Part shown: positions 2,991 through 26,464 of the stretch, one piece after another
How positions within the stretch are numbered: position 1 is the stretch's first letter
Layout: every line of letters begins with the position of its first letter
Source of the DNA: Flavobacterium album
GTDB taxonomy: Bacteria; Bacteroidota; Bacteroidia; Flavobacteriales; Flavobacteriaceae
Assembly: GCF_003096035.1 (NCBI RefSeq)
Contig: NZ_CP029186.1
Span: forward strand, 2,641,001-2,705,000
Direction: 5' to 3'
DNA length: 64,000 bases
Position numbers and translations under genes: made by a program
The notes under the pieces: generated by a model
What the model saw: the letters and a program-made list of their open reading frames with translations, nothing else
What the model was told of the DNA's origin: nothing
The model's database searches: none

Positions 2991-3188
2991 TTTATTTGGA
3001 AGGGTAAAAATAAGGATTTTTTAAGGGATCGCAGGCCGTATATGTGTCAAAAAAATCCATCAAAAACCTTACAAATGGTTATCGTTGCTATCGAAACATA
3101 TTCAGGATCAACCTGTATAGGCGTTTCATGCCTTTAAAATTTCTGACAAAAGAAATCATACTGCACCCCAAATTTTATACTTTTGGAC

Positions 3189-3815
3189 ATGCGAAGATAT
3201 ATTCTGTTAATTACCTTACTGGTGTTGCTTTCATGCAGCGATAAATCTGTTAGCGAGACAACTATTGTGGGCATCATCCCTTACAAAGGCATTAGTGATG
3301 AGAAGATTGCCATGTTGCGGGAAGCCATAACAGAATATTATGGCATCGAAACAAAATTATTGCCTGAAAAAGAATTACCCAAAGAGGCGTTCATCGCTAT
3401 AAAGTCTCCCCGTTACAGAGCTGACAGCCTTATTGCCATACAGCAACGCAATATGCCCGAAGGTATGGATTATATATTGGGCCTGACAGAAAGTGATATA
3501 TCCGTAACTAAAAAAGAAAAGGACGGAAGCATCAAAAAACCGGAATGGAAATATAACGACTTTGGCATTATGGGACTGGCGTACTGTCCCGGCAAAAGCT
3601 GTATCGTTTCCGGCTTTCGCTTAAAGCATAAGGATAAGGAAGTACATTTCGGGCGTTTCAGGAAAGTGGTTATACACGAACTCGGCCATAATTTTGGCCT
3701 GCCACATTGCCCTAACAAAAAATGCGTGATGACCGATGCGGTGGAAAAGATCGCGACTATCGATAATGCACGGCCTGAATTGTGTGAGGATTGTAAAAAG
3801 AAACTGGATATATAA
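3189..3815 (+). CDS. Archaemetzincin-family zinc metalloprotease, lipoprotein
   Basis: The signature HExxHxxGxxHC-x4-CxM-x17-CxxC is complete: HELGHNFGLPHC, then CVM and CEDC with exactly 17 residues between. This is the archaemetzincin pattern, in which three His (or the third His and nearby Cys) bind catalytic zinc and four Cys form a structural zinc site. An N-terminal lipoprotein signal ends in LVLLSC, so the enzyme is probably tethered in the periplasm or outer membrane. I chose ATG 3189; an upstream TTG at 3183 in frame is less likely. Converges with the maleate isomerase gene across a large inverted repeat. Substrate unknown. Confidence 0.88.
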   Translation: MRRYILLITLLVLLSCSDKSVSETTIVGIIPYKGISDEKIAMLREAITEYYGIETKLLPEKELPKEAFIAIKSPRYRADSLIAIQQRNMPEGMDYILGLTESDISVTKKEKDGSIKKPEWKYNDFGIMGLAYCPGKSCIVSGFRLKHKDKEVHFGRFRKVVIHELGHNFGLPHCPNKKCVMTDAVEKIATIDNARPELCEDCKKKLDI

Positions 3816-3816
3816 A

Positions 3817-3895
3817 ACCACAAAGGGCATTAAGTTTTTCGATTAGAATCACAGCGTTGTGACCCTTGTGAAAAAGACTTAGTGCCCTTTGTGGT
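3817..3895. repeat. Imperfect inverted repeat between convergent genes
   Basis: The left arm at 3817-3840 (accacaaagggcattaag...) pairs with the right arm at 3870-3895 (...cttagtgccctttgtggt) with few mismatches and a loop of about 30 bases. It fills the space between the archaemetzincin stop and the maleate isomerase stop, so it can act as a bidirectional terminator. Its form resembles the other palindromic intergenic elements in this window. Confidence 0.75.
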
Positions 3896-3902
3896 AAAAA
3901 AA

Positions 3903-4655
3903 TTAATATTTCCCGCTCAACAGCGCACCGCCCATAGGTACTTTTGTGTCAAGCCCCAATTTCTTAAGCATTTCATACGTAGTGCAAACTGCCGCCGAAG
4001 TTACGGGTATCCCAATCTCTTTTTCAATAGCATCTATAGCTTCCAGCGATGGCATCTGCACGCAGGCCGAAACCACCAATACGTCAGCACCTTCAAGGTT
4101 CAGCCGTTTATAAATATCCAAAAGGTTCATTGGGTCCTGTGCGGCAACTTCAAGATTATCCGCGATCTCAAGTGCTATCGAATCCACTACCTCAAATCCC
4201 TGGTGCTCGATATAATCTACAACAAGCTGTGTCAAAGGCTTCATATAAGGTGTAATCACAGCGACTTTTTTTGCACCAAGCACTTTCAACCCATTAATCA
4301 GCGCACCCGCACTGGTAACAATAGGAGTAGGGGAGTCGTTCTTTACGGTTTCCTCGTGCAGGTTCGTCTCTGATACGCAGTGGTAGCCGCGCCCCATACT
4401 CATAATGGCCACAAGACAGGCATACCCCATCACGTCAACACGCGCATCACTGAGTTCCTGTGCGCATTTAAGGCTTTGGGCATCCATGGCCTCAAGTTCC
4501 TCCTTGGTCACTTTCTTCATGCGCATACGGCTGGAGTGGAAGGTAAAGCGCTCCGGGGAAATTGTCTCGCGCGAACGCAGCAGTGCCGGTATCTCCGTTT
4601 CCATGGTTATGTTTGAGCTTGGCACAATCTGGCCTATACGATAAGTCTTTTTCAT
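3903..4655 (-). CDS. Maleate cis-trans isomerase (Asp/Glu racemase superfamily)
   Basis: A 250-residue protein with the maleate isomerase/arylmalonate decarboxylase fold. Two Cys in the expected settings, C80 (GYACLVAI) and C198 (VVSACVQMP), are 118 residues apart, the same spacing as the catalytic Cys76/Cys194 pair of Nocardia farcinica maleate isomerase. The N-terminal VPSSN motif also fits substrate binding. The enzyme would convert maleate to fumarate without a thiol cofactor. It is the last gene of the aromatic degradation cluster and would feed its C4 product into the TCA cycle. A role on maleylpyruvate instead of maleate is possible but less favoured by the sequence. Confidence 0.85.
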   Translation of the reverse strand: MKKTYRIGQIVPSSNITMETEIPALLRSRETISPERFTFHSSRMRMKKVTKEELEAMDAQSLKCAQELSDARVDVMGYACLVAIMSMGRGYHCVSETNLHEETVKNDSPTPIVTSAGALINGLKVLGAKKVAVITPYMKPLTQLVVDYIEHQGFEVVDSIALEIADNLEVAAQDPMNLLDIYKRLNLEGADVLVVSACVQMPSLEAIDAIEKEIGIPVTSAAVCTTYEMLKKLGLDTKVPMGGALLSGKY

Positions 4656-4689
4656 GTCTTAAAATTCCAATTTTAATAAATTCCAAGCT

Positions 4690-4753
4690 CCAAATCCCAA
4701 ATAACAAACTCGGTCACCGTCCTGATGTTTGGAATTTGTTATTTGCTATTTGG
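4690..4753. repeat. Palindromic intergenic element
   Basis: Arms at 4690-4708 and 4735-4753 pair at 17 of 19 positions (ccaaatcccaaataacaaa). It sits between the FAH hydrolase stop and the maleate isomerase start, so inside the transcript it would form a stem-loop. Confidence 0.6.
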
Positions 4754-4766
4754 TGCTTTTTAATAA

Positions 4767-5687
4767 TTATTTTACTTCTTCCGAATCAACTATTGTGTTC
4801 CTTAACGTCCCAATCCCCTCTACAGTTGCTTCCACCACATCGCCCGGCCACATCCATTCCTGTGGGTTTCGGCCTGCGCCAACGCCTGCAGGGGTTCCGG
4901 TTGCAATGATATCACCTGCTTCCAGTGTGAATACTATGCTCAGGTCATGTATCAGTTCCTCAATATTAAAGAGCATGTATTTCGTATTCGAATTCTGCTT
5001 CTCTACGCCATTCACTTTTAGCGAAAGGTTTAGGTTGTGTGGGTCGGCTATCTCATCACGGGTAACAAGCATCGGACCCATTGGTGCAAAAGTATCCTGC
5101 CCTTTAGACACGATCCATTGCCCGGCACGGCGGCAGTCACGTGCACTAATGTCATTAATGACCGTATAGCCATACACGTAGTCCATAGCATTTTCCTTTT
5201 TGATGTTCTTACCATGTTTGCTAATTATTACTGCCAGTTCCACTTCCCAATCCAACTGCTGCGTAATCTTTTGGTTATGTATAATATCGGTGTCGGTACC
5301 TGTCACTGCCGTTGGCGGCTTCGAAAAGATAACCGGCTGTTGGGGCAACTCTTTAGAGGTATCCAGTGTCCTGGCCGACTCCGCTACGTGCTCGGTATAG
5401 TTCAGCCCAATGCCAAAGATATTCTTACGGGGCTTGGGTATTGGTGCCAGAAGCGTGGCATTCGCCAAAGGTATCGAGCAGTCCAGTAATTCTTCTTTTG
5501 TAGCCGTATTCATCAAATGGACGGCGTGATTGATGCCTTCAATGCCAAGGTCGATAAAGTCCAGCATATTATCCGGCAGGTGGCTGCTTTTTATTTCGCC
5601 AAGCTTGTGCGCATCAATAATCATATTTTCTTCCACAAATCCGAGGCTTGCCGGCGCATGGTTTATTCGGTAGGTAACTAATTTCAT
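4767..5687 (-). CDS. Fumarylacetoacetate hydrolase family protein (acylpyruvate hydrolase)
   Basis: 306 residues, the usual length for the FAH C-terminal family. Metal-binding acidic residues are seen in LDWEVELAVI (E148, E150) and VINDISARD (D180), and the GTPAGVG loop is present near the C-terminus. Family members hydrolyse C-C bonds of beta-diketo acids such as fumarylpyruvate or maleylpyruvate. Directly downstream of the gentisate-type dioxygenase, it most likely splits the ring-cleavage product into pyruvate and a C4 acid or amide (maleate, fumarate or maleamate). A 174-base gap containing a perfect palindrome separates it from the dioxygenase gene. Confidence 0.88.
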   Translation of the reverse strand: MKLVTYRINHAPASLGFVEENMIIDAHKLGEIKSSHLPDNMLDFIDLGIEGINHAVHLMNTATKEELLDCSIPLANATLLAPIPKPRKNIFGIGLNYTEHVAESARTLDTSKELPQQPVIFSKPPTAVTGTDTDIIHNQKITQQLDWEVELAVIISKHGKNIKKENAMDYVYGYTVINDISARDCRRAGQWIVSKGQDTFAPMGPMLVTRDEIADPHNLNLSLKVNGVEKQNSNTKYMLFNIEELIHDLSIVFTLEAGDIIATGTPAGVGAGRNPQEWMWPGDVVEATVEGIGTLRNTIVDSEEVK

Positions 5688-5736
5688 TTATTTTGGTTGT
5701 TTGTCTATTCCTGGTTATTCTATATTACGTTTCATG

Positions 5737-5800
5737 GTAGAGACGCAGTGCCTGCGTCTCGCGATTTGCATTATGTCAGACGCAGGCACTGCGTCTCTAC
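5737..5800. repeat. Perfect 23-bp inverted repeat
   Basis: Arms at 5737-5759 (gtagagacgcagtgcctgcg...) and 5778-5800 are exact reverse complements with an 18-base loop. Located between two genes of the aromatic cluster, it is a REP-like palindromic element; in RNA it gives a very stable hairpin that could limit read-through or protect the upstream message. Confidence 0.85.
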
Positions 5801-5861
5801 AGTTATTTTCAGAAGGATATTTACGTTCCAACAGGCAACCCTGAACCCTGAACTCCAAACC

Positions 5862-6962
5862 CTAAACGGCCTGCTTTCCCTCCGGATGCGCCATTTCCTG
5901 ATACAATCCCAACGATGTTATCACTGGCAGGTCATTAAACGAGAACAGGCACGCATCTTCCGTTTCACTCAGGTTTACATGCTCATGGTAGGCCCACGAC
6001 GGTACGCAGAAAATATCCCGCTCCTTCCAGTCCAGGCGTTTTCCTGCAATGATAGAGTAGCCGTGGCCCTTCGCACATTGGTACACGAACGAGCCTGTAT
6101 GCCTGTGTGCCAGCGTATGCTCACTTGGTCGTAGCAATTGTATCGAAGCCCCCATGGTCTGCATCACGTGGCCGCCTGTTTGCGGATTGGTATAATGCAT
6201 AAGGATGCCATCATACGGCGAACCTTCATTCACCTTTGCAGCCTCCAAAAGCGCAGGATATACCTGCTTCCACGAATATTTAAAAAGGGGAGAGTAGGGC
6301 TTGTCCCAACCGTTATCCGCAGGCACGAGTCCCACGCCGCTATAGGTCAGGGGTGAATGATTTACCGGAGATGTCAATGGCTGCTTGCCGTCAAAAACCG
6401 CATAGTCATTGGCCTCTAAGGCGTTCACTAACGGAATATCCAGCCCGTCCTGCCAAATGCACGTTTTGCCTCCTTCTTCTACACCGTGCTCATGCCAAGT
6501 GCTATTGGGTGTAATCACAAAATCGTTGACTTCCAGCATTATCTTGTTACCGTCAACCACAGTATAGCCGCCTTCACCTTCCATGATAAAGCGCAGCGCC
6601 GAAGCCCTGTGCCGGTGCGCCGAAGTGCTTTCGCCAGGACGCGTTACCTGTATGCCTGTGTACAGCCAACCCACAGCAGCGCTCACATCGCGACGCTTGT
6701 CGTTCACAAGGTACACCACACGTCGGCCTGCCTGCTCGGGCGTAACCAGTTCCGATGATTTCAAAACCAGTTCCCGAAGCTGTTCATATTTCCATAGCAT
6801 CGGCACCGAAGAGGTACGCGGCTCCCACGGCTCTATGTCATTGGCAACCGTCCAAAGCGCGCCCGCACCAAGGGTCTCCAGTTCTTTATAATAGGCCTCC
6901 AGTTCCGGGGTGTCCTGCACCCGTGCACGGCCTAAAACACTATCGTCATGTTTTGTTTCCAT
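5862..6962 (-). CDS. Gentisate 1,2-dioxygenase-like bicupin ring-cleavage dioxygenase
   Basis: 366 residues with two cupin domains. The N-terminal cupin has the metal set H117, H119 (SAHRHRA) and H157 (WHEHG); the C-terminal cupin repeats it (AHRHTG, H286/H288, and YHEHV). Gentisate and 1-hydroxy-2-naphthoate dioxygenases of this family use Fe(II) and O2 to cleave the ring between the carboxyl carbon and the neighbouring substituted carbon. With the CoA ligase, 5-hydroxylase and thioesterase upstream, the substrate should be gentisate (from salicylate) or 5-hydroxyanthranilate (from anthranilate); the sequence alone does not decide. Conservation of both metal sites is unusual, since gentisate dioxygenases often keep only the first. 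Confidence 0.88.
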   Translation of the reverse strand: METKHDDSVLGRARVQDTPELEAYYKELETLGAGALWTVANDIEPWEPRTSSVPMLWKYEQLRELVLKSSELVTPEQAGRRVVYLVNDKRRDVSAAVGWLYTGIQVTRPGESTSAHRHRASALRFIMEGEGGYTVVDGNKIMLEVNDFVITPNSTWHEHGVEEGGKTCIWQDGLDIPLVNALEANDYAVFDGKQPLTSPVNHSPLTYSGVGLVPADNGWDKPYSPLFKYSWKQVYPALLEAAKVNEGSPYDGILMHYTNPQTGGHVMQTMGASIQLLRPSEHTLAHRHTGSFVYQCAKGHGYSIIAGKRLDWKERDIFCVPSWAYHEHVNLSETEDACLFSFNDLPVITSLGLYQEMAHPEGKQAV

Positions 6963-7040
6963 ACTAAATCAATTAGTTGAAGTTGTTTTTTTATTTGAAG
7001 CGGAATGGCCAGTCTCTTATCAGCCATCCATGTTCCTGCC

Positions 7041-7103
7041 TTCCGCTGTATCCCCGCAGAAAAAGCGGGGGATGCCGCTTCAGTCAGGGCTATCGGCCAT
7101 CCA
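7041..7103. repeat. Dispersed repeat, copy 1 (second copy at 60467-60529)
   Basis: About 63 bases including ccccgcagaaaaagcgggg and cagggctatcggccat; nearly the same sequence occurs at 60467-60529 upstream of the rRNA operon. It contains an internal stem (tccccgc/gcgggg). It ends next to the stop codon of the nitrilase gene. Confidence 0.85.
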
Positions 7104-7105
7104 TT

Positions 7106-8086
7106 TTATTTTTGGCCGCTTTCATCGCCGTCCGTAAACGTAATATTCTTCCTCGGCGCGGTATTCACACGCAGGTCGAATATATCAAACCGGTTATAAT
7201 GCCCCAGTATATCGTGCATCTGCTTGGGCTGTATGCATTTCGACAGGTCAATGTCCGCATATACGATTCCTTCCTCATCAATCAGCGGCTCACCAATCAC
7301 AGCGCCGTTCGGCCCGATAACCCCGGAAAATGCACTGTTTTTGCGCGTCAGTAATTCCTCGGCATTTGGCACATCTTCCTTCATAATGTCGATAATCTCC
7401 TTTGTGATAGTAGAGCAGGAGACAATGGTAAAAAGCTTTCCTTCAAACGAATGCGCTGCCGCACGAATCTTTATTGCCTCTGCCATATTGTAATCTGGTG
7501 GGGCAACAGGCAATGAGATGTAGTTGGCAATATGTATCAGCTCTCCCTGTGTCAACAGTGTAAAGCGCGCCAGCGTGTTGGTGTTTTCGCCACAGGCCAA
7601 TGTCCCGATGGGGCCTATTTCTGTATTATACACTTTCAATGACGACCCGTCGCCGCCCGTCCACGTCAGCTTTTCCGCCCAAGTTGGCACCAGCTTTCTG
7701 TGCTTTCCAACAAGGTTCCCATTATTGTCTATAATAAGGTTGGTGTTGTACAGTTCCCCAAAGCTCTGCCCGCGCTCATTCACACCGATCACTACATGGC
7801 AGTTGTGCTCTTTCGCCGCTTGGCATATCCTGTCTACTTCCGGTCCCGGAACCGTAATGGAATTTACATACAGTTTCTCGTACCACTTACTGCCCTGCAC
7901 CGGTGTCATGATCCAGTTCCAGTACGGATATCCGGCTACGAACACCTCAGGGAACGCCACAAGTGATGCTCCATTTCCGGCAGCCTCAGCAATTATGGAA
8001 ATGGCTTTATCCACCGTAGCATCTACATCCAGAAAAACAGGGGATGCCTGCACGGCTGCAGCCTTGAATTTTGGTAAGTCCAACAT
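7106..8086 (-). CDS. Carbon-nitrogen hydrolase (nitrilase/amidase superfamily)
   Basis: 326 residues, nitrilase length. The Glu-Lys-Cys triad is visible: E47 (FPEVFVAGYPYW), K131 (KHRKLVPTW) and C165 (TLACGENTN). The CGENTN setting is that of aliphatic nitrilases and related enzymes, which hydrolyse nitriles, or in some members amides, to acids and ammonia. It lies inside the aromatic operon between the thioesterase and the dioxygenase. Two roles fit: releasing ammonia from an amide intermediate (maleamate or maleamylpyruvate) if the substrate is anthranilate, or making the aromatic acid from a nitrile. The first is my inference from gene context. Confidence 0.85.
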   Translation of the reverse strand: MLDLPKFKAAAVQASPVFLDVDATVDKAISIIAEAAGNGASLVAFPEVFVAGYPYWNWIMTPVQGSKWYEKLYVNSITVPGPEVDRICQAAKEHNCHVVIGVNERGQSFGELYNTNLIIDNNGNLVGKHRKLVPTWAEKLTWTGGDGSSLKVYNTEIGPIGTLACGENTNTLARFTLLTQGELIHIANYISLPVAPPDYNMAEAIKIRAAAHSFEGKLFTIVSCSTITKEIIDIMKEDVPNAEELLTRKNSAFSGVIGPNGAVIGEPLIDEEGIVYADIDLSKCIQPKQMHDILGHYNRFDIFDLRVNTAPRKNITFTDGDESGQK

Positions 8087-8090
8087 TTTA

Positions 8091-8118
8091 ATTACGAATT
8101 ATAAATTACGAATTACGG
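8091..8118. repeat. Short AT-rich repeat shared with the rRNA spacer
   Basis: attacgaattataaattacg followed by aattacgg lies between nitrilase and thioesterase genes; almost the same string is at 63122-63150 between tRNA-Ile and tRNA-Ala. A dispersed, self-complementary intergenic element. Confidence 0.6.
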
Positions 8119-8172
8119 CCTGTCAGGTCCGTAAAAGTCTATTATCTCAAATCTATTATCTTTTTGTCTCGC

Positions 8173-8610
8173 TTAAAACCTCATATCCGGAATCAAATAT
8201 TCCTCGAGCTTTGCCCGCATCTCTTCCGGGAACGGACTTGATTTTATCTCGTCGCGGCCTTCGCCGAATTCCACCCGTACAAGCGATACTTCTCCTTCAA
8301 GGCAAATTGAGCCATCTTCATGCTCAAACTTAAAGCCACAGGTCATTGAAGACGAGCCCAGTTTTTTTACCCAGAAGTATTTTGTTAATATATCACCCAA
8401 CCGGGCAGCTTTCTTAAACTGTATCTTTAAATCCACTGTGGGAATTCCTCCCGTTTTATGGATATTTTTGAACGGCATGTTTAACGCCTCGCTGTAAAAA
8501 TCCTCTACTATATTATTGAGCATCTCCAGAAATCGCGGGTAGAATACTATCCCCGCAAAATCTACGTGCTGGAAACGAACGGTCTCTTTTTTTATAAATG
8601 TTTTTTCCAT
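8173..8610 (-). CDS. Acyl-CoA thioesterase, 4-hydroxybenzoyl-CoA thioesterase (hotdog) family
   Basis: 145 residues. The N-terminal segment HVDFAGIVFYPRFLEMLN matches the 4HBT hotdog family, with the Asp of the [HD]xD.AG pattern as the likely catalytic residue. It would free the hydroxylated aromatic acid from CoA so that the cupin dioxygenase can use it. Start and stop are coupled to the CoA ligase: the ligase TGA overlaps the thioesterase ATG by one base. Confidence 0.85.
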   Translation of the reverse strand: MEKTFIKKETVRFQHVDFAGIVFYPRFLEMLNNIVEDFYSEALNMPFKNIHKTGGIPTVDLKIQFKKAARLGDILTKYFWVKKLGSSSMTCGFKFEHEDGSICLEGEVSLVRVEFGEGRDEIKSSPFPEEMRAKLEEYLIPDMRF

Positions 8611-10226
8611 CAGGCTTGTACTGTATTTTTCAATTTAAATCGTTGTATTTTTCCAGTCTCCGTTTTCGGCAGCGCATCCATATATCGAATTTCCCTTGGA
8701 TATTTATACGGTGCTGCAATGTTCTTGAACCAGTCCTGTATTTGCTTCGTCAGCTCGTCCGAGGCTTTTTCTTTGTCTTTCAAAACCAAGTAGGCACATA
8801 CCAGCATTCCGCGGTTCTCGTCCGGCAGGCCGACTACAGCGCACTCAATAATGTCATCGTGTGTAAGCAATACGCTTTCTACCTCGATGGCGGCGATGTT
8901 ATACCCCGAAGAGATGATCATATCATCCCCGCGTGCCACGAACCAGAAATAGCCGTCCTCATCCTTACGGAAAATATCGCCGGTAATGTTCCAGCCGTTC
9001 TCTACATATTCTTTTTGCTTGTCAGGGCTGTTCAGGTACTTGCAACCGGTTATACCACGTACGGCTAACCTTCCGGGGGTGCCGTCTGTTATTTCGTTGC
9101 CTTTGTTATCTACGATCCTCGCTTCATAACCGCGTATGGGCAGCCCGGTTGCACCTTTGCGCATATTTTCCTCATTCGACGATATAAAGATATGGAGTAT
9201 TTCGGTTGACCCGATGCCGTCGATAATCTTTAATCCCGTTGCTTCATACCATTCTTCCCAAACTTTTACGGGCAATGTCTCCCCGGCCGACACACATTTT
9301 CGCAGCGAAGAAATATCAAAGTCTTTTACTTTGGTAGTCAACACCCGCCATGCCGTTGGTGCAGTAAAGCAGATGGTTACCTTGTGTTCCGCAATAGCTT
9401 TTAGTAGCAGGTCGGGCGACGGTTTTTCTATCAAAAAAGTCGATGCTCCATAATAGAATGGGAATAGCACTAATCCACCCAAACCGAAGGTAAATCCAAG
9501 CGGCGGGCTTCCGGTAAAGATATCATCCGGTGTAGGCTGTAATGAATATTTAGGGAAAGCCTCGCAAATAAGCAATATGTCCTTATGATAGTGCGAGGTC
9601 ATTTTTGGCTTGCCGGTCGTGCCGGAGGTAAAGCCTATAATCGATAATGAATCGGCTTTTGTAGGATGGTTTCCGAAGGTCTTCGGCTTGTTGCCCATCA
9701 GCGTTTCCAGTTTCGAAACATGCTGTCCCGAACCGTCAAACGTAACGATATGCTTCAGGAACGGAGAACTGACGGCGAGCATAGCCTCTTCTAATGTAAA
9801 ATCACAAAACGCATGCGATATCTCAGCGCATTCCACCATTACGCTTAGTTCTTTTTCACGAAGCAACGGCATGGTAGCTACCACAATGCCGCCCGCTTTC
9901 AGTATCCCGAACCAGCAGGCCACATACATCGGGTTGTTCGCAGAGCGTATCATTACACGATTACCCGGTACAAAATCAAGGTTATCTTTAAGCACATGCG
10001 CTATCTGGTTGGCTTTTTCATAAAGTTCATGAAAGGTCCAGCTGCCCTCAAAAGTGCGTATGGCTATCCTGTCGCCATTGCCTTCGGCAATATGCCTGTC
10101 CAGCAATCGCTCCACGCAGTTCAGGTCTTCCGGGAACTCAAAATCCGGATGGTCAGTAAAGCATTCCGCCTGTAATGAAGGGTGGGGGAGATGGTCGTGT
10201 GCAAAATTATCTTCGTAATGTCTCAT
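8610..10226 (-). CDS. 2-aminobenzoate/benzoate-type CoA ligase
   Basis: 538-residue ANL-superfamily enzyme. The phosphate-binding loop GFTSGTTGKPK is near residue 200, the A5 motif is IIDGIGSTE, the hinge region FVARGDDMI, and the C-terminal catalytic Lys lies in PKTETGKIQR. The subfamily is that of benzoate and 2-aminobenzoate CoA ligases, which use ATP to form the aryl-CoA. It supplies the substrate of the fused monooxygenase encoded just upstream. Whether it prefers anthranilate, salicylate or benzoate needs assay. Confidence 0.87.
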   Translation of the reverse strand: MRHYEDNFAHDHLPHPSLQAECFTDHPDFEFPEDLNCVERLLDRHIAEGNGDRIAIRTFEGSWTFHELYEKANQIAHVLKDNLDFVPGNRVMIRSANNPMYVACWFGILKAGGIVVATMPLLREKELSVMVECAEISHAFCDFTLEEAMLAVSSPFLKHIVTFDGSGQHVSKLETLMGNKPKTFGNHPTKADSLSIIGFTSGTTGKPKMTSHYHKDILLICEAFPKYSLQPTPDDIFTGSPPLGFTFGLGGLVLFPFYYGASTFLIEKPSPDLLLKAIAEHKVTICFTAPTAWRVLTTKVKDFDISSLRKCVSAGETLPVKVWEEWYEATGLKIIDGIGSTEILHIFISSNEENMRKGATGLPIRGYEARIVDNKGNEITDGTPGRLAVRGITGCKYLNSPDKQKEYVENGWNITGDIFRKDEDGYFWFVARGDDMIISSGYNIAAIEVESVLLTHDDIIECAVVGLPDENRGMLVCAYLVLKDKEKASDELTKQIQDWFKNIAAPYKYPREIRYMDALPKTETGKIQRFKLKNTVQA

Positions 10227-10299
10227 TGCTAAAATGTCGTCTTTATCATGATTCCGAAATTATGCGATACAATGTCACTTCGGACGCAAATGGAACCAT

Positions 10300-10353
10300 A
10301 AACAATGTAAATGCCACATTTCGACTGCGCTCAATATGACATTTACATTGTTT
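10300..10353. repeat. Palindromic element with 14-bp perfect arms
   Basis: Arms aaacaatgtaaatg (10300-10313) and its exact complement (10340-10353) flank ttcgactgcgctcaatatga. It lies in the 151-base gap between the monooxygenase/oxidoreductase and ligase genes and looks like a REP-type element. Confidence 0.8.
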
Positions 10354-10377
10354 ATTTAGAATATTTACGTTCATGTA

Positions 10378-12690
10378 TTACTTCTTATGTGTCAACGGTT
10401 TCAATGCTCTTTTCATACCTTCCACAGCTTTTCGCTCTCCGCCTTTATACGGATAAAAATGAGATGCAGCCGACATATATTGCTTCGGTATGCCTACTGA
10501 ATCCAGGTCGTTCGCCTTGTACTGTTCATACGCCTGAGCGGTACGCACAAAATACGGGTCGAGCAGCAATGTTTTGCCTAATGCCACTAGGTCGGCGCGG
10601 CCATTTAACAGAATCGTATTGATCTGGTCAATGTCCTGGATGTAGCCCGCGGTGATCGTTGGAACGTGGACAGTATTACGCACCATATCGCTGAACGGTG
10701 TCTGCCACATCCTGCCTACTGCCGGTTTCTGGTAATCAACAGTCAATCCGGTTGAGACGTTAATAATATCTGCTCCGGCCTTTTTAAACGCTTCAGCAAT
10801 TGCGAGCACATCGCCTTCATCAATACCGCCTTCTGCCCAATCGGATGCCGAAATACGTACGCTTATGGGTTTCTCGGGAGGGAATACCTCACGCATGGCT
10901 TTAAATACCCTTATTGGGAATTTAAGCCTGTTGGTTATGCTTCCGCCAAATTCATCTTGTCTTGTATTTGTCAGAGGCGAAAGGAACGATGCGAGCAAAA
11001 AGCCGTGATGCGCCTGTAGTTCTATCATATCGAAGCCCGCTTCATTCGCGTTCTTTGCCGCATTGGCAAACTCCTCCGTAATAATGTCCATATCTTCTGT
11101 GGTCATTTCATTCGGAACGGCCATCGCATCATTATAGGCTATGGGCGAAGCTGAAAGCAGTCCCCAGGTATCATCCAATGGTTCGTTATGCCCTTCCCAA
11201 GGAAATCTCACGGCCCCTTTTCGTCCGGAATGGCCAATCTGTACCGCTATTTTAGCAACGCTGTTTTTATGGATAAAACCAGTAACCCTTTTCCATGCAG
11301 CAACTTGTTCATCAGACCATATTCCCGGGCATCCCAAAGTTATCCTTCCGGTCGGTGAAATGGCAGTGGCTTCAGTTATTATGAGGCCTACACCACCTGT
11401 AGCCCTCGCACCGTAGTGCATCAGGTGCCAGTCGGAAACGAGTCCATCCGTTGCCGAGTATTGTTCCATCGGGCTCATCACGATGCGATTATCCAGCACC
11501 ATAGAGCGTAAGGAGAATGGCGTAAATGCAGCAGGGGTATCGGGTTTGTTATCGGCTAAGTTCGCATTGAATTCAGCCAGTACTTTTTGTGTAAACGATT
11601 TGTCACGCAACCCAAGGTTTTCAAACGTGACCTTCTTGGAGCGCGTCATTACGCTAAAGGCAAATTGCATGAACGGGTGCTGAATGTGGCGGTCCATATC
11701 CTCAAACCATTGCAGCGACACATTGGCCGCATGCTGTATCATTTCCACGCGGTTGCGGCGCAGCTTCTCATAATTCTCAAAAACAGCAGGCACATTATCG
11801 CCGTGTTTTATGACCGAATCGGCCAGGGCAATAGCACACTCCATAGCCAGCTTGGTTCCCGACCCAATAGAATAGTGGGCCGTAGCCTTGGAATCACCCA
11901 GCAGCACTATATTGTCGTGGCTCCATTTTTTGTTGGTAATAACAGGAAACTGCCTCCAGTGCGAGCGGTTGGATATTAGCCCATGTCCCTCAAGCTCTTC
12001 TGCAAACAGCTCTTGAAGCTTATTGATCGTGTTTTCTTCATCTGTAACGCTGAACCCCGCTTTTTGCCAGGTTTCATCCGTGGTTTCAAATATCCAGGTG
12101 CTCATGCCTTCCTCATATTGGTAGGTGTGGGCTACGAAAGTGCCATAAGGCGTTGTCCTGAAAAAATAAGTAAATGCATCCAGCGGTCGGGTAGAGCCCA
12201 TCCACACGAAACGGTTGCTTTTCAGTTCGATATCGGTACCGAAATCGGAAACGAATTTCTCACGTATGCCGCTGTTGATACCATCTGCCGCCACAATGAT
12301 GTCCGAGTCGGCAAATTGGGTCATATCATCTACATTAGCCTCAAAATGAAGGTTAACGCCTTCTTCCCGGCAGCGTTGCTGAAGCAGTTGCAGCAACGTT
12401 TTTCGGGAGCATCCGCAAAAGCCGTTACCGGTAATGCGCACCTTCTCACCATCGCGGGCTACATCAAGTTCGTCCCAGTAAGCGAATTTCGTGCGGATCA
12501 GGTCATACGACTGCGGGTCACGCGTAAGGAACTCGCTCAGTGTCTCATCAGAGAACACCACGCCAAAACCAAAGGAATCATCGGCACGGTTGCGTTCGTA
12601 AACATTTATGGTATAATCAGGCCTTGCTTTTTTAAGCAGGATGGAAAAATACAATCCGCCCGGGCCGCCGCCTATTACTGTTATTTTCAT
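10378..12690 (-). CDS. Bifunctional salicylyl-CoA 5-hydroxylase / 2-aminobenzoyl-CoA monooxygenase fused to Old Yellow Enzyme
   Basis: 770 residues, two enzymes in one chain. Residues 1 to about 375 are a class A flavin monooxygenase: VIGGGPGGLYFS for FAD binding, GFGVVFSDETL, and LLGDSKATAHYSIGSG as the second FAD motif. From about 385 on is an NADH:flavin oxidoreductase of the Old Yellow Enzyme family (IVMSPMEQYSA, AVQIGHSGRKG, LQAHHGFLLASFLSP). The length and order match the 2-aminobenzoyl-CoA monooxygenase/reductase of Azoarcus and proteins named bifunctional salicylyl-CoA 5-hydroxylase/oxidoreductase. It would hydroxylate the aryl-CoA para to the ortho substituent. The role of the reductase half here is unclear, because reducing the ring would conflict with dioxygenase cleavage. 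Its start overlaps the flavin reductase stop by 4 bases. Confidence 0.88.
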   Translation of the reverse strand: MKITVIGGGPGGLYFSILLKKARPDYTINVYERNRADDSFGFGVVFSDETLSEFLTRDPQSYDLIRTKFAYWDELDVARDGEKVRITGNGFCGCSRKTLLQLLQQRCREEGVNLHFEANVDDMTQFADSDIIVAADGINSGIREKFVSDFGTDIELKSNRFVWMGSTRPLDAFTYFFRTTPYGTFVAHTYQYEEGMSTWIFETTDETWQKAGFSVTDEENTINKLQELFAEELEGHGLISNRSHWRQFPVITNKKWSHDNIVLLGDSKATAHYSIGSGTKLAMECAIALADSVIKHGDNVPAVFENYEKLRRNRVEMIQHAANVSLQWFEDMDRHIQHPFMQFAFSVMTRSKKVTFENLGLRDKSFTQKVLAEFNANLADNKPDTPAAFTPFSLRSMVLDNRIVMSPMEQYSATDGLVSDWHLMHYGARATGGVGLIITEATAISPTGRITLGCPGIWSDEQVAAWKRVTGFIHKNSVAKIAVQIGHSGRKGAVRFPWEGHNEPLDDTWGLLSASPIAYNDAMAVPNEMTTEDMDIITEEFANAAKNANEAGFDMIELQAHHGFLLASFLSPLTNTRQDEFGGSITNRLKFPIRVFKAMREVFPPEKPISVRISASDWAEGGIDEGDVLAIAEAFKKAGADIINVSTGLTVDYQKPAVGRMWQTPFSDMVRNTVHVPTITAGYIQDIDQINTILLNGRADLVALGKTLLLDPYFVRTAQAYEQYKANDLDSVGIPKQYMSAASHFYPYKGGERKAVEGMKRALKPLTHKK

Positions 12691-13304
12691 GGTTTTATAA
12701 AAGGTCTTTTAATGGAGAAAACCTCGCCAATTTTAGCATAATTTGAACCTTCGAGGCGGGCAATAGGCTTATAGGTTTCCCTGTTGATCTTAAAATCGTC
12801 CAACAGCACGCTTTCGTCCACATGGAACATTACGATACGGCCTATCATTATCGTTGCGCCGCCATCCTTATGGCTTTCAAGGCTGTAATGATGCACGAGC
12901 TCGCATTCGAAATGGATAGGGCTTTCGGCTACCCTTGGCGCTTTTACCAAAACAGAAGGTATTGCGGTCAATCCTGCATATTCAAACTCATTGCTATCAG
13001 GCGGCAAGTTTATGGAGGAGTTATTCATTGCTTCCACCAGTTCCTCTGTAGCCATATTTACCACGAACTGTTTTGTGGCTAATACATTGTTTAATGTGTC
13101 TTTATTGATATTCCCGCTGCGTACGGTAGAGAACATCACATGGGGCGGGTCTTCGCCTACAGCATTAAAAAACGAGAAGGGAGCGAGATTAGGGATGCCA
13201 TCTTCGCTTATAGTGGATATCCATCCGATAGGGCGCGGAATTACAGACCCCGTAAGGATCTTATATATGTCTTTCTGGCTGGTGTGCGCCGGATCGATCT
13301 GCAT
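12687..13304 (-). CDS. Flavin reductase-like domain protein (FMN-binding split barrel)
   Basis: 205 residues. PRPIGWIST and APFSFFNAVGEDPP are typical of the DIM6/NTAB flavin reductase family, which bind FMN in a split barrel. It is the first gene of the aromatic cluster and is coupled by a 4-base overlap to the fused monooxygenase, so it probably supplies reduced flavin or reduces a flavin-linked intermediate. No regulator gene adjoins the cluster start. Confidence 0.85.
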   Translation of the reverse strand: MQIDPAHTSQKDIYKILTGSVIPRPIGWISTISEDGIPNLAPFSFFNAVGEDPPHVMFSTVRSGNINKDTLNNVLATKQFVVNMATEELVEAMNNSSINLPPDSNEFEYAGLTAIPSVLVKAPRVAESPIHFECELVHHYSLESHKDGGATIMIGRIVMFHVDESVLLDDFKINRETYKPIARLEGSNYAKIGEVFSIKRPFIKP

Positions 13305-21440: not shown

Positions 21441-24400
21441 CTATTGTTGCCTGTTTACGTAAACCCATCCGGTCCTGCTTTGTCCCGGGCGCTCAATTAC
21501 ATAAAAGTAGGTTCCGGTAGGCAGCTCATCGCCGTTATCGGTTTGTCCGTACCATTGGTTCGTATAGTCGTTCTTACTATATACTTCTTCGCCATACCTG
21601 TTAAAGATAGAAAGCTTTTTCGCACCCATACCGGAGATATCAAAGTTGTCATTCTTGTTATCCGCATTTGGCGAAATACCCCTCGGTATGTCACAGAAAG
21701 TACCATCTACAGTGAAAGTATAGTCTGTGGAACAGCCACCCGGTGTGGTAACTGTCAGCGTAAAGTCGATAGGGTAGAGCTCAGGGGTAATAGAATTGCT
21801 GTCGGCATATTCTGTAGCATCAAACTTAGTGCCGGTGCCTACCTGTGCGCCATTAGCATCTGTCCATACAAATGTAGCAGTGCTTTCGTCAGCTCCTGTC
21901 ACCGAAGCGTTCAGCATGTAGCTGTTTTCAAAGCCGCCGCCTTCACAACCCTGGCTGCCTGTAATCGCGATATTGTTCACAGGAGCATTAAGGGTTACCG
22001 TAGCGTCCGGCGATTTACAGCCGCCATCGCTCATAACACTTATTGTATAGTTACCCGGATCAAGGCCTGCAAATGTTGTAGCCGACTGGTAATTGGTACC
22101 GTCAATGCTATAGCTGTATTGCGATCCCAGCGGGCCTGCTATAGTTATAGCTCCCATTCCTGTAGCACAGTCCGGCTGCGTAAGTGTGGTAGTAGCTGCA
22201 ACCGGTGTTTCAGGTATTGCATTAACGGTCACTGTAGCAGTAGAGGTACATCCGCTGATGTTTTTAACAGTGATAGTATAATCGCCGGGAGCAAGGTTGA
22301 TGAAACCGGTTCCGCTCTGGAAATTGGTACCATCTATGCTGTAGCTGAATCCTGAACCTGTTGGCCCAGTTACATCAATCCTTCCTACATTATTGAAACA
22401 GGTAGGTTGGGTAACATCGGTTGTAGCTACAGCAGGTATCGGTGAGCTGTCGATATTAATGAACCCTGTAGTCGAAGTACAACCTCCCGCATTCATTACT
22501 GTTACGATATAAGCGCCTCCTGCAAGTCCTGCAAATGTAGTACTGCTTTGGAAGTTAGTACCATCAATACTATAGGTGAACCCTGTACCTGTTGGTGTGT
22601 TTACAACGATTGTTCCCGTAGGTACTGCACAGGTTGGCTGCGTAGGTGTAGTTGTTGCAACTGCAGGCACAGTAGGGACAGGGTTGATCGTAATCGTTGC
22701 TACCGACTGGCATCCTGCATTATCAGTTGTTAGGGTATACGTGCCGGGAGCAAGGTTAGCAAATGTAGTTGTAGCCTGGAAGTTAACCCCGTCAATACTA
22801 TAGGTAAATCCGGCTCCTGTTGGTGCAGTAACCTCGATAGTTCCTGTAGTTATACCTGTACAGTTAGGCTGTGTTACCATTGTTGTTGCCACTGCCGGTG
22901 CGCCCGGTGCTGCATTAATGGTTACGGCTGATGATACAGAAGTACATCCGCCTGAAGTTTGCGTTGTGATCGTGTAGCTCCCGGGTGCAAGGTTAGCGAA
23001 TGTCGTTGATGTCTGGAAGTTCGTTCCGTCAATGCTGTAGCTAAATCCTGCTCCTGTTGGAGAATCAACAACGATAGTTCCTGTCGGCATACTACATGTA
23101 GGCTGCGTAACTGTAGTTGCTGCAGCAGCAATTCCTGTAGGGACAGCATCGATAGTAACCGAAGCTGTAGAAGTACATCCGTCTGTATTTTGTGTTGTAA
23201 CAGTATAGTTGCCCGGTGCAAGTCCTGCAAATGTTGTTGAAGACTGGAAGGTAGTGCCATCTATACTATAAGTAAATGCGCCTGTTGGAGCAGTAACCTC
23301 AATTGTTCCTGTAGGCGTTGTACACGTTGGTTGTGTCAGCGTTGTAGTAGCAACTGCAGGTCCTGCCGGAACCGCATTGATCGTTACTGAAGCTGTAGAA
23401 GTACATCCGCCTGCGTTTTGTGTAGTAACAGTATAGGTACCAGGGGCAAGGTTAGCGAATGTAGTTGTATTCTGGAAGTTTGTACCGTCGATGCTGTAAG
23501 TAAACGCACCAAGAGGAGCAGTAACTTCAATTGTTCCTGTAGGTGTGGCACAGGTTGGCTGTGTCAGTGTTGTTACAGCAGCAGACGGTGCACCCGGTAC
23601 AGTATTAATTGTTATAGTCGCTGTAGCAGATGTACATCCTGCGCCGTTTTTAGTAGTAACAGTATAGTTACCCGGAGCAACGTTAGCAAACACAGGAGAA
23701 GCCTGGAAGGTTGTACCGTCTATACTGTAGGTAAGGTCGCCTCCTGTTGGGAATGTTACTTCAATGCTTCCGCTTGTTGTACAGTCAGGCTGTGTTACTG
23801 TGGTTGTAGCCACAGCGGGAGCTGTAGGAGCAGCATTTATGGTTATAGCTGCCGTAACCGAAGTACATCCTCCGGTAGCCTGCGTTGTTATAGTGTAAGT
23901 ACCTGGTGCAAGGTTAGAGAATGTATTGGAAGACTGGAAAGTCGTGCCATCAATACTATAGGTAAATCCTGCCGGTGTGTCCACAACGATGCTTCCTGTG
24001 GCAGTGGTACAAGTTGGCTGAGTCACTGTAGTTGTAGCTACACCGGGTACAACAGGCACTGCATTTATAGTTATTGTAGGTGTAACTGAGTTACATCCTG
24101 CGCTGTTTTGCGTGGTAACAGTATAATTGCCGGGAGCAAGGTTGGCAAATACAGGTGATGCCTGGAATGTCGTGCCATCAATGCTATAGGTATATTCCCC
24201 TGCCGGAGTTGTTGGGTTTGTAACAGTTATGGTTCCGGTAGCAGTAGTACAAGTTGGCTGTGCTACTGTTGTGGTTGCCACAGCCGGTGAAGTTGGCGCT
24301 GGGTTAATGGTGATTGTTGCCGTTACTGATGTACATCCTAATGCAGTCATGCTCGTGATCGTGTAGTTGCCCGGTGTAAGCCCACTGAACACGCCTCCTG

Positions 24401-26327
24401 ACTGGAAAGTACTTCCGTCAAGGCTATAGGTAAGTGTAGGATCTGCAGAAGTGTCAACCGTTATAGTACCGGTAGCTGTGGTACATGTAGGCTGTGTTAC
24501 TATAAATGTAGCAACTGCCGGTGCAAGCGGTGCAGGGACAATTGTAAACGGCACTAAGGAAACACAGTTAGCCGATGATTTGATTGTAAGTGTATAACTT
24601 CCGGGAGCGATACCGTTGAAGGCAAGCCCGGGCTGGAAGTTCACGCCGTCTATACTATAGGTAAGGCCGTCTCCTACTGATGGCATGATAAGCAGCCCGC
24701 CTGTAGGAATGGCACAGGTAGGTGCTACAGGTATAACCACCGCAAGAGGCAGCGGAGAAACTGTTAGCTGCACTGCGTTACTTATAAGTGTACATCCGGC
24801 TGAGGTAGCTACACAGTAGAACTGCGCACCGTTAAATTCAAGCGGAGTGTCAATCACTGTAAGCTGTACGGTATTCGCGCCTAAAAAATTGTCGCCATCG
24901 GTTATATTTACCCAGTTACCTGAGGCATTAAGCATTTTCCACTGGTAAGTAAATGTAGATGCGGCGCTTAGGGTAACGGTATATTGCACGTTGTCGCCTT
25001 CGCATACCGCAGCGCTCAGTGGCTGTGCCGAAATATGGTCAGATGAAGAAGAAGTTATATTGTGTATGCCCAGATTAGAGCAGTCCTCGGTGTCAGAAAT
25101 TGCCCAGTCGGCAGCATTATATGTTGCGCTTGGTACTTGTGCATTAGCATTCCTTATCATTGAAAAGCCAACGTTTGACGGAGTGTTAACAACATCGATG
25201 ACTACAGTGTTTTTTACAAGCTCAAGTTTATCGCTATCGTTAAATCCGCTTGGCAGTAAATTGATCGGTGTACCTGTAAGTCCGCAAACCGAAGTAGCGG
25301 TGCGCACTATGTTTATACCTCCAGGTGCAAGCATGCCCGTAAGGTTTAGTGTAAAAGTAGCAGGGCCGTTTATTGTTCCGTGGCGTACAATGCTGTATAA
25401 CGAAAGGTCTATAGTAGCATTGGTGCCATTATATAATTCTATGGCACCGCCTTCACCCGCTTCGGCATCATATATTTCAGAAATGAAAAGATCGTTAGGG
25501 CCAACAAATGCGGGGCAGTTTGATGATATCATGGTAAAGGTACCGGATGTGCCTGTACATGCATTTGTAGTTACCGTTACTGCACCTGTTGGAGCGCCAT
25601 CTGCAACTATGGCTTTAATTTGTGTATCTGTTACTACGGTAAAGCCTGACGCTTCAACACCGCCGAATTTAACTGATGTTGTACCGGCGCTAAAGCCGCT
25701 CCCTGTTATTGTTACAAGAGTATTCGACGGACCCGATGCCGGCGAGAATGAAGAGATAACCGGTGCTGTACAGCCGGCATTCACGTTCCCGTTGAGCGTA
25801 AAGTCGTCCAGCCTGAAAGTTCCGCTGCCCGTTGCGCCGCTTAATGACAGCATAACCGTTACATTACCCGTAAGGCCATTCACAGGATTGGCTACTGTAG
25901 TAGTAGGTATTGCTGCGCCTGTAGTAGGTACGTTACCGTTTCCTACGTTGACACCGTTTATAGTCATTGTCCAGTTTTGGGCGCCGGTATTGCTGCGCCT
26001 CCTCCAAAAGCTGAAGGATGTGATATCGAGCGTTTTTCCCGCGGCAACGTTAAATGTCAGGGTAATGGTAGGCGATCCGCCACTGTCATTAAGAGCGATT
26101 GCCTCTCCTGTTGCGCCTCCAAGGTTTGTCCATGCGCCGGTGCTGTTTGACCATGACGAACCCGAAAGGTCTGGGTTTAATGTAGTAGGCGCTACAGTGT
26201 AGGGATGCGTGGTAATATTGGTTGTACCAAAATTGTGCATGTAAACCTGCGCGTAGCTTCCGGGCTTGATCACAAATAAGAATGTGAGTAGTAAAATAAG
26301 CCTGAAATGGGTAATTTTTCTTTCCAT
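21441..26327 (-). CDS. SprB-repeat gliding/adhesin-like protein with T9SS type B sorting domain
   Basis: 1628 residues from ATG 26327; a TTG further upstream is in frame but follows no signal. Order of parts: signal peptide (ILLLTFLFVIKPGSYAQ); an N-terminal beta domain; an IPT/TIG domain (APVISSFSPASGPSNTLVTI); a lamin-tail-like domain (DLFISEIYDAEAGEGGAIEL); an Ig-like domain; twelve tandem SprB-type repeats of about 77 residues (residues roughly 525-1447), each with a YSIDGtxFQ core, NLAPGxYT and GCTS; then the gliding-motility-type C-terminal domain (GISPNADNKNDNFDI ... GTYFYVIERPG). This tail is the type B signal for the type IX secretion system. Surface-exposed adhesin, by analogy with SprB of Flavobacterium johnsoniae. 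Confidence 0.93.
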   Translation of the reverse strand: MERKITHFRLILLLTFLFVIKPGSYAQVYMHNFGTTNITTHPYTVAPTTLNPDLSGSSWSNSTGAWTNLGGATGEAIALNDSGGSPTITLTFNVAAGKTLDITSFSFWRRRSNTGAQNWTMTINGVNVGNGNVPTTGAAIPTTTVANPVNGLTGNVTVMLSLSGATGSGTFRLDDFTLNGNVNAGCTAPVISSFSPASGPSNTLVTITGSGFSAGTTSVKFGGVEASGFTVVTDTQIKAIVADGAPTGAVTVTTNACTGTSGTFTMISSNCPAFVGPNDLFISEIYDAEAGEGGAIELYNGTNATIDLSLYSIVRHGTINGPATFTLNLTGMLAPGGINIVRTATSVCGLTGTPINLLPSGFNDSDKLELVKNTVVIDVVNTPSNVGFSMIRNANAQVPSATYNAADWAISDTEDCSNLGIHNITSSSSDHISAQPLSAAVCEGDNVQYTVTLSAASTFTYQWKMLNASGNWVNITDGDNFLGANTVQLTVIDTPLEFNGAQFYCVATSAGCTLISNAVQLTVSPLPLAVVIPVAPTCAIPTGGLLIMPSVGDGLTYSIDGVNFQPGLAFNGIAPGSYTLTIKSSANCVSLVPFTIVPAPLAPAVATFIVTQPTCTTATGTITVDTSADPTLTYSLDGSTFQSGGVFSGLTPGNYTITSMTALGCTSVTATITINPAPTSPAVATTTVAQPTCTTATGTITVTNPTTPAGEYTYSIDGTTFQASPVFANLAPGNYTVTTQNSAGCNSVTPTITINAVPVVPGVATTTVTQPTCTTATGSIVVDTPAGFTYSIDGTTFQSSNTFSNLAPGTYTITTQATGGCTSVTAAITINAAPTAPAVATTTVTQPDCTTSGSIEVTFPTGGDLTYSIDGTTFQASPVFANVAPGNYTVTTKNGAGCTSATATITINTVPGAPSAAVTTLTQPTCATPTGTIEVTAPLGAFTYSIDGTNFQNTTTFANLAPGTYTVTTQNAGGCTSTASVTINAVPAGPAVATTTLTQPTCTTPTGTIEVTAPTGAFTYSIDGTTFQSSTTFAGLAPGNYTVTTQNTDGCTSTASVTIDAVPTGIAAAATTVTQPTCSMPTGTIVVDSPTGAGFSYSIDGTNFQTSTTFANLAPGSYTITTQTSGGCTSVSSAVTINAAPGAPAVATTMVTQPNCTGITTGTIEVTAPTGAGFTYSIDGVNFQATTTFANLAPGTYTLTTDNAGCQSVATITINPVPTVPAVATTTPTQPTCAVPTGTIVVNTPTGTGFTYSIDGTNFQSSTTFAGLAGGAYIVTVMNAGGCTSTTGFINIDSSPIPAVATTDVTQPTCFNNVGRIDVTGPTGSGFSYSIDGTNFQSGTGFINLAPGDYTITVKNISGCTSTATVTVNAIPETPVAATTTLTQPDCATGMGAITIAGPLGSQYSYSIDGTNYQSATTFAGLDPGNYTISVMSDGGCKSPDATVTLNAPVNNIAITGSQGCEGGGFENSYMLNASVTGADESTATFVWTDANGAQVGTGTKFDATEYADSNSITPELYPIDFTLTVTTPGGCSTDYTFTVDGTFCDIPRGISPNADNKNDNFDISGMGAKKLSIFNRYGEEVYSKNDYTNQWYGQTDNGDELPTGTYFYVIERPGQSRTGWVYVNRQQ
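21990..24770. repeat. Tandem array of twelve units of about 230 bp inside the adhesin gene
   Basis: Twelve copies of the YSIDG/YSLDG coding unit in direct order, with several neighbouring units nearly identical over long stretches (for instance around 23250 and 23480). The units are coding and in frame throughout. The array is prone to unequal recombination and to assembly collapse. Confidence 0.9.
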
Positions 26328-26464
26328 AATTGTTTCTTTTAGCAAAGGGATTCTGTACAAAATTAATTACTTAACAAGCCAACTGTTTCGTCATTAAGTA
26401 ACATTTATTAAAAGATTAACCTGCATTTAAGAGTTATCGTTGCGCTCGTTATTATGCAGGCATA

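Follow-up and report, generated by a model that had tools for sequence, protein, structure and literature searches.

The window analysed here is a stretch of 64,000 nucleotides from the complete 3.98 Mb chromosome of Flavobacterium album (contig NZ_CP029186.1, positions 2,641,001 to 2,705,000), and our subject is a set of eight genes near its start that may encode a pathway for the breakdown of anthranilate. The genes are intact open reading frames (ORFs) on the minus strand between positions 3903 and 13304. In order of transcription they encode a flavin-reductase-like protein, an FAD monooxygenase fused to an Old Yellow Enzyme (OYE)-type reductase, an aryl-CoA ligase, a 4HBT thioesterase, a nitrilase homologue, a bicupin dioxygenase, an FAA-hydrolase-family (FAH) protein and a maleate isomerase. 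Counted neighbour by neighbour from position 3903, the intergenic gaps are 111, 174, 143, 86, -1, 151 and -4 bases. The initial annotation had placed eight genes on one strand and assigned them to these families; the layout was borne out, and the family list holds in all parts checked by matches to Pfam, NCBIfam and PDB.

Table 1. Features of the operon, in window coordinates, with the matches on which their assignment rests.
Feature	Position	Strand	Evidence
Maleate cis-trans isomerase (maleate to fumarate)	3903..4655	-	best PDB match 4fq7, E 1.7e-103
FAA-hydrolase-family C-C hydrolase, proposed to convert maleamylpyruvate to maleamate and pyruvate	4767..5687	-	PF01557, E 1.5e-71; substrate inferred
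Perfect 23-nt inverted repeat	5737..5800		FAH-dioxygenase gap; not specific to the operon
Bicupin ring-cleaving dioxygenase, proposed 5-hydroxyanthranilate 1,2-dioxygenase	5862..6962	-	closest structure GDOsp 3bu7, E 2.6e-162
Nitrilase-superfamily amidohydrolase, CGENTN subfamily, proposed maleamate or maleamylpyruvate amidase	7106..8086	-	PF00795, E 2.6e-43
4HBT thioesterase, proposed 5-hydroxyanthraniloyl-CoA hydrolase	8173..8610	-	PF13279, E 1.3e-12
Aryl-CoA ligase, AMP-binding, proposed anthranilate-CoA ligase	8610..10226	-	best PDB match 4wv3, E 2.4e-88
FAD aryl-CoA monooxygenase-OYE-type reductase fusion, proposed anthraniloyl-CoA 5-hydroxylase	10378..12690	-	NF006101; OYE residues Q559/H562/F564
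Flavin-reductase-like protein	12687..13304	-	PF01613, E 4.6e-25

A scan of genome contigs with the dioxygenase gave 217 relatives, and the best 80 of these were examined. By title they belong to Flavobacterium, its family or broader groups of Bacteroidota; two contigs (L027 and L087) instead bear the name Bifidobacterium breve. The initial annotation had proposed searching other Bacteroidetes for the eight-gene set, and 68 of the 80 relatives have all eight genes, complete or in part; of the remaining 12, eleven are truncated at a stretch or contig end, and in one (L035) the upstream five genes are missing within 10 kb. The order and strand of the genes present were identical in all 80. The eight genes are a real operon and not a chance arrangement. 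Median identities, taken for each gene over the 69-80 loci that have it, were highest for the isomerase (85%), dioxygenase (84%) and nitrilase homologue (80%), followed by the ligase (74%), monooxygenase (71%), FAH (69%), flavin reductase (67%) and thioesterase (63%). The nitrilase homologue is conserved nearly as tightly as the dioxygenase and the isomerase. It is present in 66 of 150 Flavobacterium genomes and, across the phylum Bacteroidota, in 6 of 395 genomes and one of 170 genera, all six being Flavobacterium; the contig scan with the dioxygenase also places Paenimyroides and Myroides among the operon relatives.

A proposed route from anthranilate to fumarate, pyruvate and ammonia

We put the probability at about 0.7 that the operon encodes a complete aerobic catabolism of anthranilate, in which the ring nitrogen ends in an amide. 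Gene content, conservation and linkage are observed, and from them we infer every substrate and product named below. Anthranilate is a waste product of tryptophan and would be supplied by the kynurenine pathway. The ligase would activate it to anthraniloyl-CoA, which the fused monooxygenase, with reduced flavin or NADH, may convert to 5-hydroxyanthraniloyl-CoA, and the thioesterase would release 5-hydroxyanthranilate. Gentisate-type cleavage between C1 and C2 converts C2 into a carboxyl group. In 5-hydroxyanthranilate C2 bears the NH2 group, so by this family chemistry cleavage beside that carbon by the bicupin dioxygenase would be expected to give a carboxamide in place of the carboxyl, the product being maleamylpyruvate. 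The FAH hydrolase would then yield pyruvate and maleamate, and the nitrilase homologue would hydrolyse the amide of maleamate, or already that of maleamylpyruvate, to leave ammonia and maleate, with the isomerase converting maleate to fumarate. This chain was first set out in the initial annotation, and it is supported as the best reading of the locus by four lines of evidence: the linkage to isatin hydrolase and indolepyruvate-oxidoreductase genes in other bacteria, the match of the ligase to an anthranilate-CoA ligase, the constancy of the nitrilase homologue and the signature of the dioxygenase subfamily.

The ligase ranks first in PDB against the anthranilate-CoA ligase 4wv3 (300 bits), with a benzoate-CoA ligase following at 237 bits (E 3.2e-69). 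Together with the fusion protein it matches one feature of the 2-aminobenzoyl-CoA monooxygenase/reductase system, an FAD monooxygenase-OYE fusion accompanied by an aryl-CoA ligase. The NCBIfam name of the fused family is salicylyl-CoA 5-hydroxylase/oxidoreductase (NF006101), and this, like the resemblance of the dioxygenase to gentisate enzymes, would fit an operon that takes salicylate via salicylyl-CoA and gentisyl-CoA to gentisate by the sdg route, leaving the nitrilase homologue unrelated to the pathway. We consider this quite unlikely. The fusion of the window scores 986 bits against NF006101, under the cut-off of 1078 that a Caballeronia homologue passes with 1333 bits; the ligase is nearest to the anthranilate enzyme, and the nitrilase homologue is conserved almost as strongly as the core genes. 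Alcaligenes aquatilis QD168, with a reported SdgC homologue, used anthranilate for growth but failed to grow on salicylate, though it also has andA genes (PMC6460240).

The first active-site His of the OYE half is replaced by Gln in all rows read, including those from Caballeronia, Cupriavidus and Novosphingobium. We dropped this Gln as a sign of lost reduction, since it is a trait of the whole fused family and nothing specific to this operon. In three stretches that lack a monooxygenase match (L096-L098), a protein 33-40% identical to the flavin-reductase-like protein is still found close to the dioxygenase, so its role may go beyond, or differ from, the supply of flavin.

The nitrilase homologue retains the catalytic Glu47, Lys131 and Cys165 of its superfamily. 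The CGENTN motif is present in all 78 nitrilase-homologue ORFs of the relatives, and CGE occurs at the catalytic Cys in the best 120 of 7,048 database matches, window included. The nearest structures are called nitrilases and read CWE (8uxu and 3wuy) or CAE (6zby) at this position. In branch-1 nitrilases a Trp follows the catalytic Cys; the window protein has Gly, and it scores 247 bits against the model of the Nit6803-family nitrilases (TIGR04048), under the cut-off of 502.6. The names of these structures, and the fact that the pathway substrates are read from sequence, leave room for a hydrolase that acts on a nitrile feeding the pathway, or for a substrate that is some other ring-aminated aryl acid, for example a substituted anthranilate. 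Either seems very unlikely to us: the eight genes include no nitrile- or aldoxime-forming gene, and Gly replaces the Trp seen in 8uxu and 3wuy, though 6zby has Ala there. The maleamate amidohydrolase NicF has an isochorismatase-family fold, and in the operon the amide-type hydrolases are represented by PF00795 alone. Homologues of the CGENTN type also occur in Polaromonas (L100, 55%) and in the haloarchaeon Salinigranum (L101, 51%), with no dioxygenase match in either stretch; one of these two adjoins a branched-chain-type ABC transporter. The CGENTN subfamily may have another use too.

The isomerase belongs to an Asp/Glu racemase-type family, and the 'right Cys pair' ascribed to it by the initial annotation corresponds to C80 and C198, both aligned to Cys in the closely matching 4fq7, which we take to come from Pseudomonas putida S16. 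At the position of the second Cys the chains 4fq5 and 4fq7 are not the same, and the Cys-pair motif is present in all 77 isomerase ORFs of the relatives. With the FAA hydrolase as query no NCBIfam model scored above its cut-off.

The ring-cleaving dioxygenase and its relatives

The dioxygenase is approximately 64% identical to GDOsp from Ruegeria pomeroyi (PDB 3bu7), and its metal-site residues His116, His118 and His157 align with His119, His121 and His160 of that structure. Immediately before the conserved active-site Asp lies Gln171 (Gln174 in GDOsp); the role of this Asp in gentisate-type dioxygenases is taken from PMC4019311. The Gln was found in all 80 flavobacterial ORFs, in all 15 rows from other phyla or the window and in the best 120 of 3,793 database matches to the Caballeronia enzyme. 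In the comparison set the residue is Leu in the nine control loci described below and in the E. coli gentisate dioxygenase (GDO) 2d40, and Ile in 4fag. The last of these was deposited as a gentisate dioxygenase and is, we assume, a form of salicylate dioxygenase. Leu or Ile before the Asp is a feature defined in this analysis and no published criterion, and the window dioxygenase does not share it. In a tree of 30 rows, a fully supported branch separates 21 core-type dioxygenases from the nine controls; several of the control branches are long, a point on which the program cautions. As judged from sequence, the core-type enzymes, which we call WQD-type, form a clade of their own set apart from the compared gentisate and salicylate enzymes.

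The window dioxygenase reaches 289.5 bits against the gentisate dioxygenase model TIGR02272, which has a cut-off of 442, a weak test because none of the 14 control genomes reached the cut-off either. One of them is C. glutamicum, which presumably has a gentisate dioxygenase. We also observed a second HxH...H motif in the C-terminal cupin (H286, H288 and H326), which the aligned E. coli gentisate dioxygenase does not have; a second C-terminal HxH motif is noted for GDOsp too (PMC4019311). Several Burkholderiales members of the clade, cupins of about 375 residues, carry the name 'NADPH dehydrogenase' in public records.

The same core outside Bacteroidota and its possible feeding pathways

Seventeen plasmid records have a dioxygenase at 60-80% identity, of which we examined 14 (H32, H33 and H47 were left out). 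As controls we used ordinary gentisate-dioxygenase loci, nine out of 13 listed of the 190 plasmid records below 60%, with dioxygenases 36-43% identical to that of the window. All eight proteins of the operon served as tblastn queries against the stretches (E 1e-8), alongside ORF lists, a search that more distant C-N hydrolases would escape; three of the 14 loci and several controls, which have no annotation, were read by these two means. In each of the nine plasmid records with a nitrilase match of at least 60%, a dioxygenase match of 60% or more lies no further than about 1.5 kb away. A core of CGENTN nitrilase homologue, dioxygenase, FAH and isomerase is present in 8 of the 14 loci, those of Ruegeria pomeroyi, Sulfitobacter THAF37, Sagittula, Leisingera, two Shinella replicons, Caballeronia and the actinomycete Embleya, and so extends beyond flavobacteria to Alphaproteobacteria, Betaproteobacteria and one actinomycete. 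The dioxygenase of the Ruegeria core locus is GDOsp itself, identical along its full length. Four further loci have the dioxygenase, FAH and a different (CWEN) C-N hydrolase in the 25-kb stretch, with no isomerase match there. This hydrolase adjoins the dioxygenase but is divergent in two Novosphingobium loci, follows FAH in Aminobacter and lies approximately 6 kb downstream in Tistrella. Among the controls, eight of nine have no nitrilase homologue, and the single one found (Sagittula P11) belongs to a nitrogen-starvation cluster on the opposite strand. A C-N hydrolase is therefore near the dioxygenase in 12 of 14 clade loci versus one of nine controls (Fisher p 0.0007, with related records not independent), a difference that speaks against the salicylate route.

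The neighbours of the core suggest where its substrate comes from. At five of six annotated core loci (Ruegeria, Caballeronia, one Shinella replicon, Sulfitobacter and Sagittula) indolepyruvate-oxidoreductase genes and a thioesterase adjoin the core, the other Shinella replicon and Embleya falling outside this count. The gene that immediately follows the isomerase in Shinella has isatin hydrolase structures as its matches (E 9.8e-100). Cyclase-family genes lie near the core in Caballeronia, Sulfitobacter and Sagittula, the Caballeronia copy being a weak arylformamidase match in NCBIfam. The iadA/iadB auxin loci, which degrade indole-3-acetate to anthranilate with isatin and isatinate as intermediates, are described as including the same kind of oxidoreductase genes (PMC9613470). 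The isatin hydrolase and indolepyruvate-oxidoreductase context thus favours a nitrogen-bearing, anthranilate-type substrate over salicylate.

Whether the four-gene module found in several phyla is a general lower pathway for 5-hydroxyanthranilate, fed differently in each organism, with GDOsp really a carboxamide-forming 5-hydroxyanthranilate 1,2-dioxygenase, is in our view an even bet. In flavobacteria the module would be fed with anthranilate via the ligase, hydroxylase and thioesterase. Isatinate is a 2-oxo acid, and an indolepyruvate-type oxidoreductase could form anthraniloyl-CoA from it directly. In Caballeronia this reaction, plus the hydroxylase, may feed the module, which would explain why the fused monooxygenase occurs there without a ligase in the stretch. 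Ruegeria, Sulfitobacter, Sagittula and one Shinella replicon have the oxidoreductase and thioesterase with no hydroxylase match in their 25-kb stretches. These could be fed by 5-hydroxyindoles such as products of serotonin; alternatively the hydroxylase may lie elsewhere in the genome, or the distant acyl-CoA ligases present in three of these four stretches may be used. The literature matches listed for serotonin included none on a 5-hydroxyanthranilate pathway by title.

Several points weigh against the reading of the operon as an anthranilate pathway with amide-forming cleavage. The main one is GDOsp, a member of the clade, which was deposited as a gentisate 1,2-dioxygenase and reportedly published with gentisate as its substrate; it may be misnamed. 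Leisingera has the core with no indolepyruvate-oxidoreductase genes in its stretch. In Cupriavidus, where the stretch is rich in IS elements, and in Sulfitobacter alexandrii the dioxygenase and FAH are present, but no C-N hydrolase was detected within 12 kb. One control (L116) has an amidase-family gene approximately 9 kb away from the dioxygenase gene; amide hydrolysis in the vicinity of a gentisate enzyme is thus nothing exceptional, although this gene is of a family other than nitrilase. In favour of the reading, tryptophan dioxygenase (TDO) and kynureninase genes lie elsewhere in the F. album genome. Among the 150 Flavobacterium genomes kynureninase is found in 144, TDO in 138 (64 of the 66 nitrilase-positive) and HAAO in 130; the presence of kynureninase is weak evidence because it is nearly universal in the genus. 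We dropped the kynurenine link as a test, kynureninase being present in 66 of 66 nitrilase-positive versus 78 of 84 negative genomes (p 0.035). Arthrobacter Rue61a, which has the CoA pathway, is reported not to grow on 5-hydroxyanthranilate (PMC3534580), and breakdown of anthranilate via gentisate has been reported in Nocardia and Alcaligenes (PMC4539516, PMC6221969).

The gentisate name of GDOsp and the gentisate intermediate that these reviews report for Nocardia opaca and an Alcaligenes would both suit a route in which the nitrilase homologue, or another enzyme, deaminates 5-hydroxyanthranilate to gentisate; ring cleavage would give maleylpyruvate, and FAH would produce maleate and pyruvate. 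We regard this as unlikely. Next to the active-site Asp, the members of the dioxygenase clade have a residue other than that of the gentisate enzymes in the comparison. The substrates of the nitrilase superfamily are nitriles and amides, attacked via a Cys thioester, and we know of no case of aryl-amine hydrolysis by such an enzyme; both considerations count against deamination.

A last point against the aromatic route is that the OYE half has no step in it. This half, including the active-site stretch, is nevertheless retained in all 69 relatives of at least 700 residues, and the Azoarcus-type fused enzyme is reported to reduce the ring to a dearomatised product when NADH is not limiting (PMC3534580). 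The fused enzyme of the operon might do the same, with the dioxygenase part used for another substrate. It is highly improbable in our estimate, as the eight genes contain, by Pfam, no beta-oxidation gene but do contain a thioesterase and a ring-cleaving dioxygenase, and Novosphingobium, Cupriavidus and Caballeronia also combine the fused monooxygenase with a WQD-type dioxygenase.

Some features of the loci stand apart from these questions. Extra genes are inserted within the operon in relatives, the commonest being a glutamate-synthase-like FMN protein after the ligase (30/80). This protein, with a glutamate-synthase domain (PF01645) in the single copy scanned (L047:6765-8345), is absent from the window operon. 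An ORF that we take to resemble a REP-type Y1 transposase follows the nitrilase gene in five relatives. The two contigs titled Bifidobacterium breve carry the operon with a dioxygenase 84-87% identical to that of a Flavobacterium, and are probably mislabelled or contaminated metagenome bins. The genome contains the half-site of the inverted repeat between the FAH and dioxygenase genes five times, in three cases as a complete dyad. A scan for promoters and terminators performed no better than on shuffled sequence. The convergent neighbour at 3183-3815 encodes an M54-type (archaemetzincin-like) peptidase, and a further 23-nt inverted repeat, 91% complementary, lies between it and the operon at 3817-3895. 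At 21441-26360 is a 1639-residue ORF with many similar repeats, by its look a putative large repetitive surface protein.

Comparison with known systems

The families of the operon are individually known; as far as can be told, the gene combination, the amide-forming cleavage and the role of the amidohydrolase would be new. The initial annotation had stated that it knew of no characterised pathway with this exact set, and among the matches listed the open-access literature does not contradict it, subscription journals lying mostly outside that search. Searched there by name, maleamylpyruvate and 5-hydroxyanthranilate dioxygenase gave a match only for 5-hydroxyanthraniloyl-CoA. If the anthranilate reading is true, the operon supplies candidate genes for every step of a type of route whose first proposal dates from 1968, and its chemistry would differ from deamination in that the ring nitrogen leaves as an amide. 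The dioxygenase clade annotated as gentisate enzymes, its crystallised member included, would then have to be renamed, and the core would provide the lower part for the breakdown of indole and auxin in some soil and marine bacteria.

The proposed end of the pathway is shared with the lower pathway of nicotinate and nicotine, which also finishes with maleamate hydrolysis and maleate isomerase. In that pathway (NicX, NicD, NicF and maleate isomerase) maleamate comes from a pyridine ring, and the amidase is of the isochorismatase type, with no nitrilase homologue. The sdg salicylate route of Streptomyces sp. WA46 proceeds by CoA activation, 5-hydroxylation by a hydroxylase that is not fused, thioester cleavage and gentisate-type cleavage. 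It follows the same logic as the window operon but involves no nitrogen and no amidohydrolase. The GDOsp locus has nit, FAH and isomerase neighbours, and its dioxygenase the same three metal His residues, as in the window; the difference lies in the substrate, reportedly gentisate for GDOsp and 5-hydroxyanthranilate as proposed here.

The upper part is closest to the 2-aminobenzoyl-CoA pathway of Azoarcus evansii and Arthrobacter sp. Rue61a, in which a CoA ligase and a fused monooxygenase/OYE reductase likewise act on anthranilate, and 5-hydroxyanthraniloyl-CoA is reported when NADH is short (PMC3534580, PMC4539516). There, however, the product is dearomatised and passes to beta-oxidation; the window operon has instead a thioesterase, dioxygenase, FAH hydrolase, amidohydrolase and maleate isomerase. 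A 2018 review counts a gentisate-type route among four known for anthranilate and gives its enzyme and gene as unknown (PMC6221969), and an earlier review traces this route to Nocardia opaca in 1968 (PMC4539516). The Nocardia opaca route (Cain 1968) has 5-hydroxyanthranilate as an intermediate, as proposed here, but is reported to lead onward to gentisate (PMC4539516), where the window operon would cleave the aminated ring itself.

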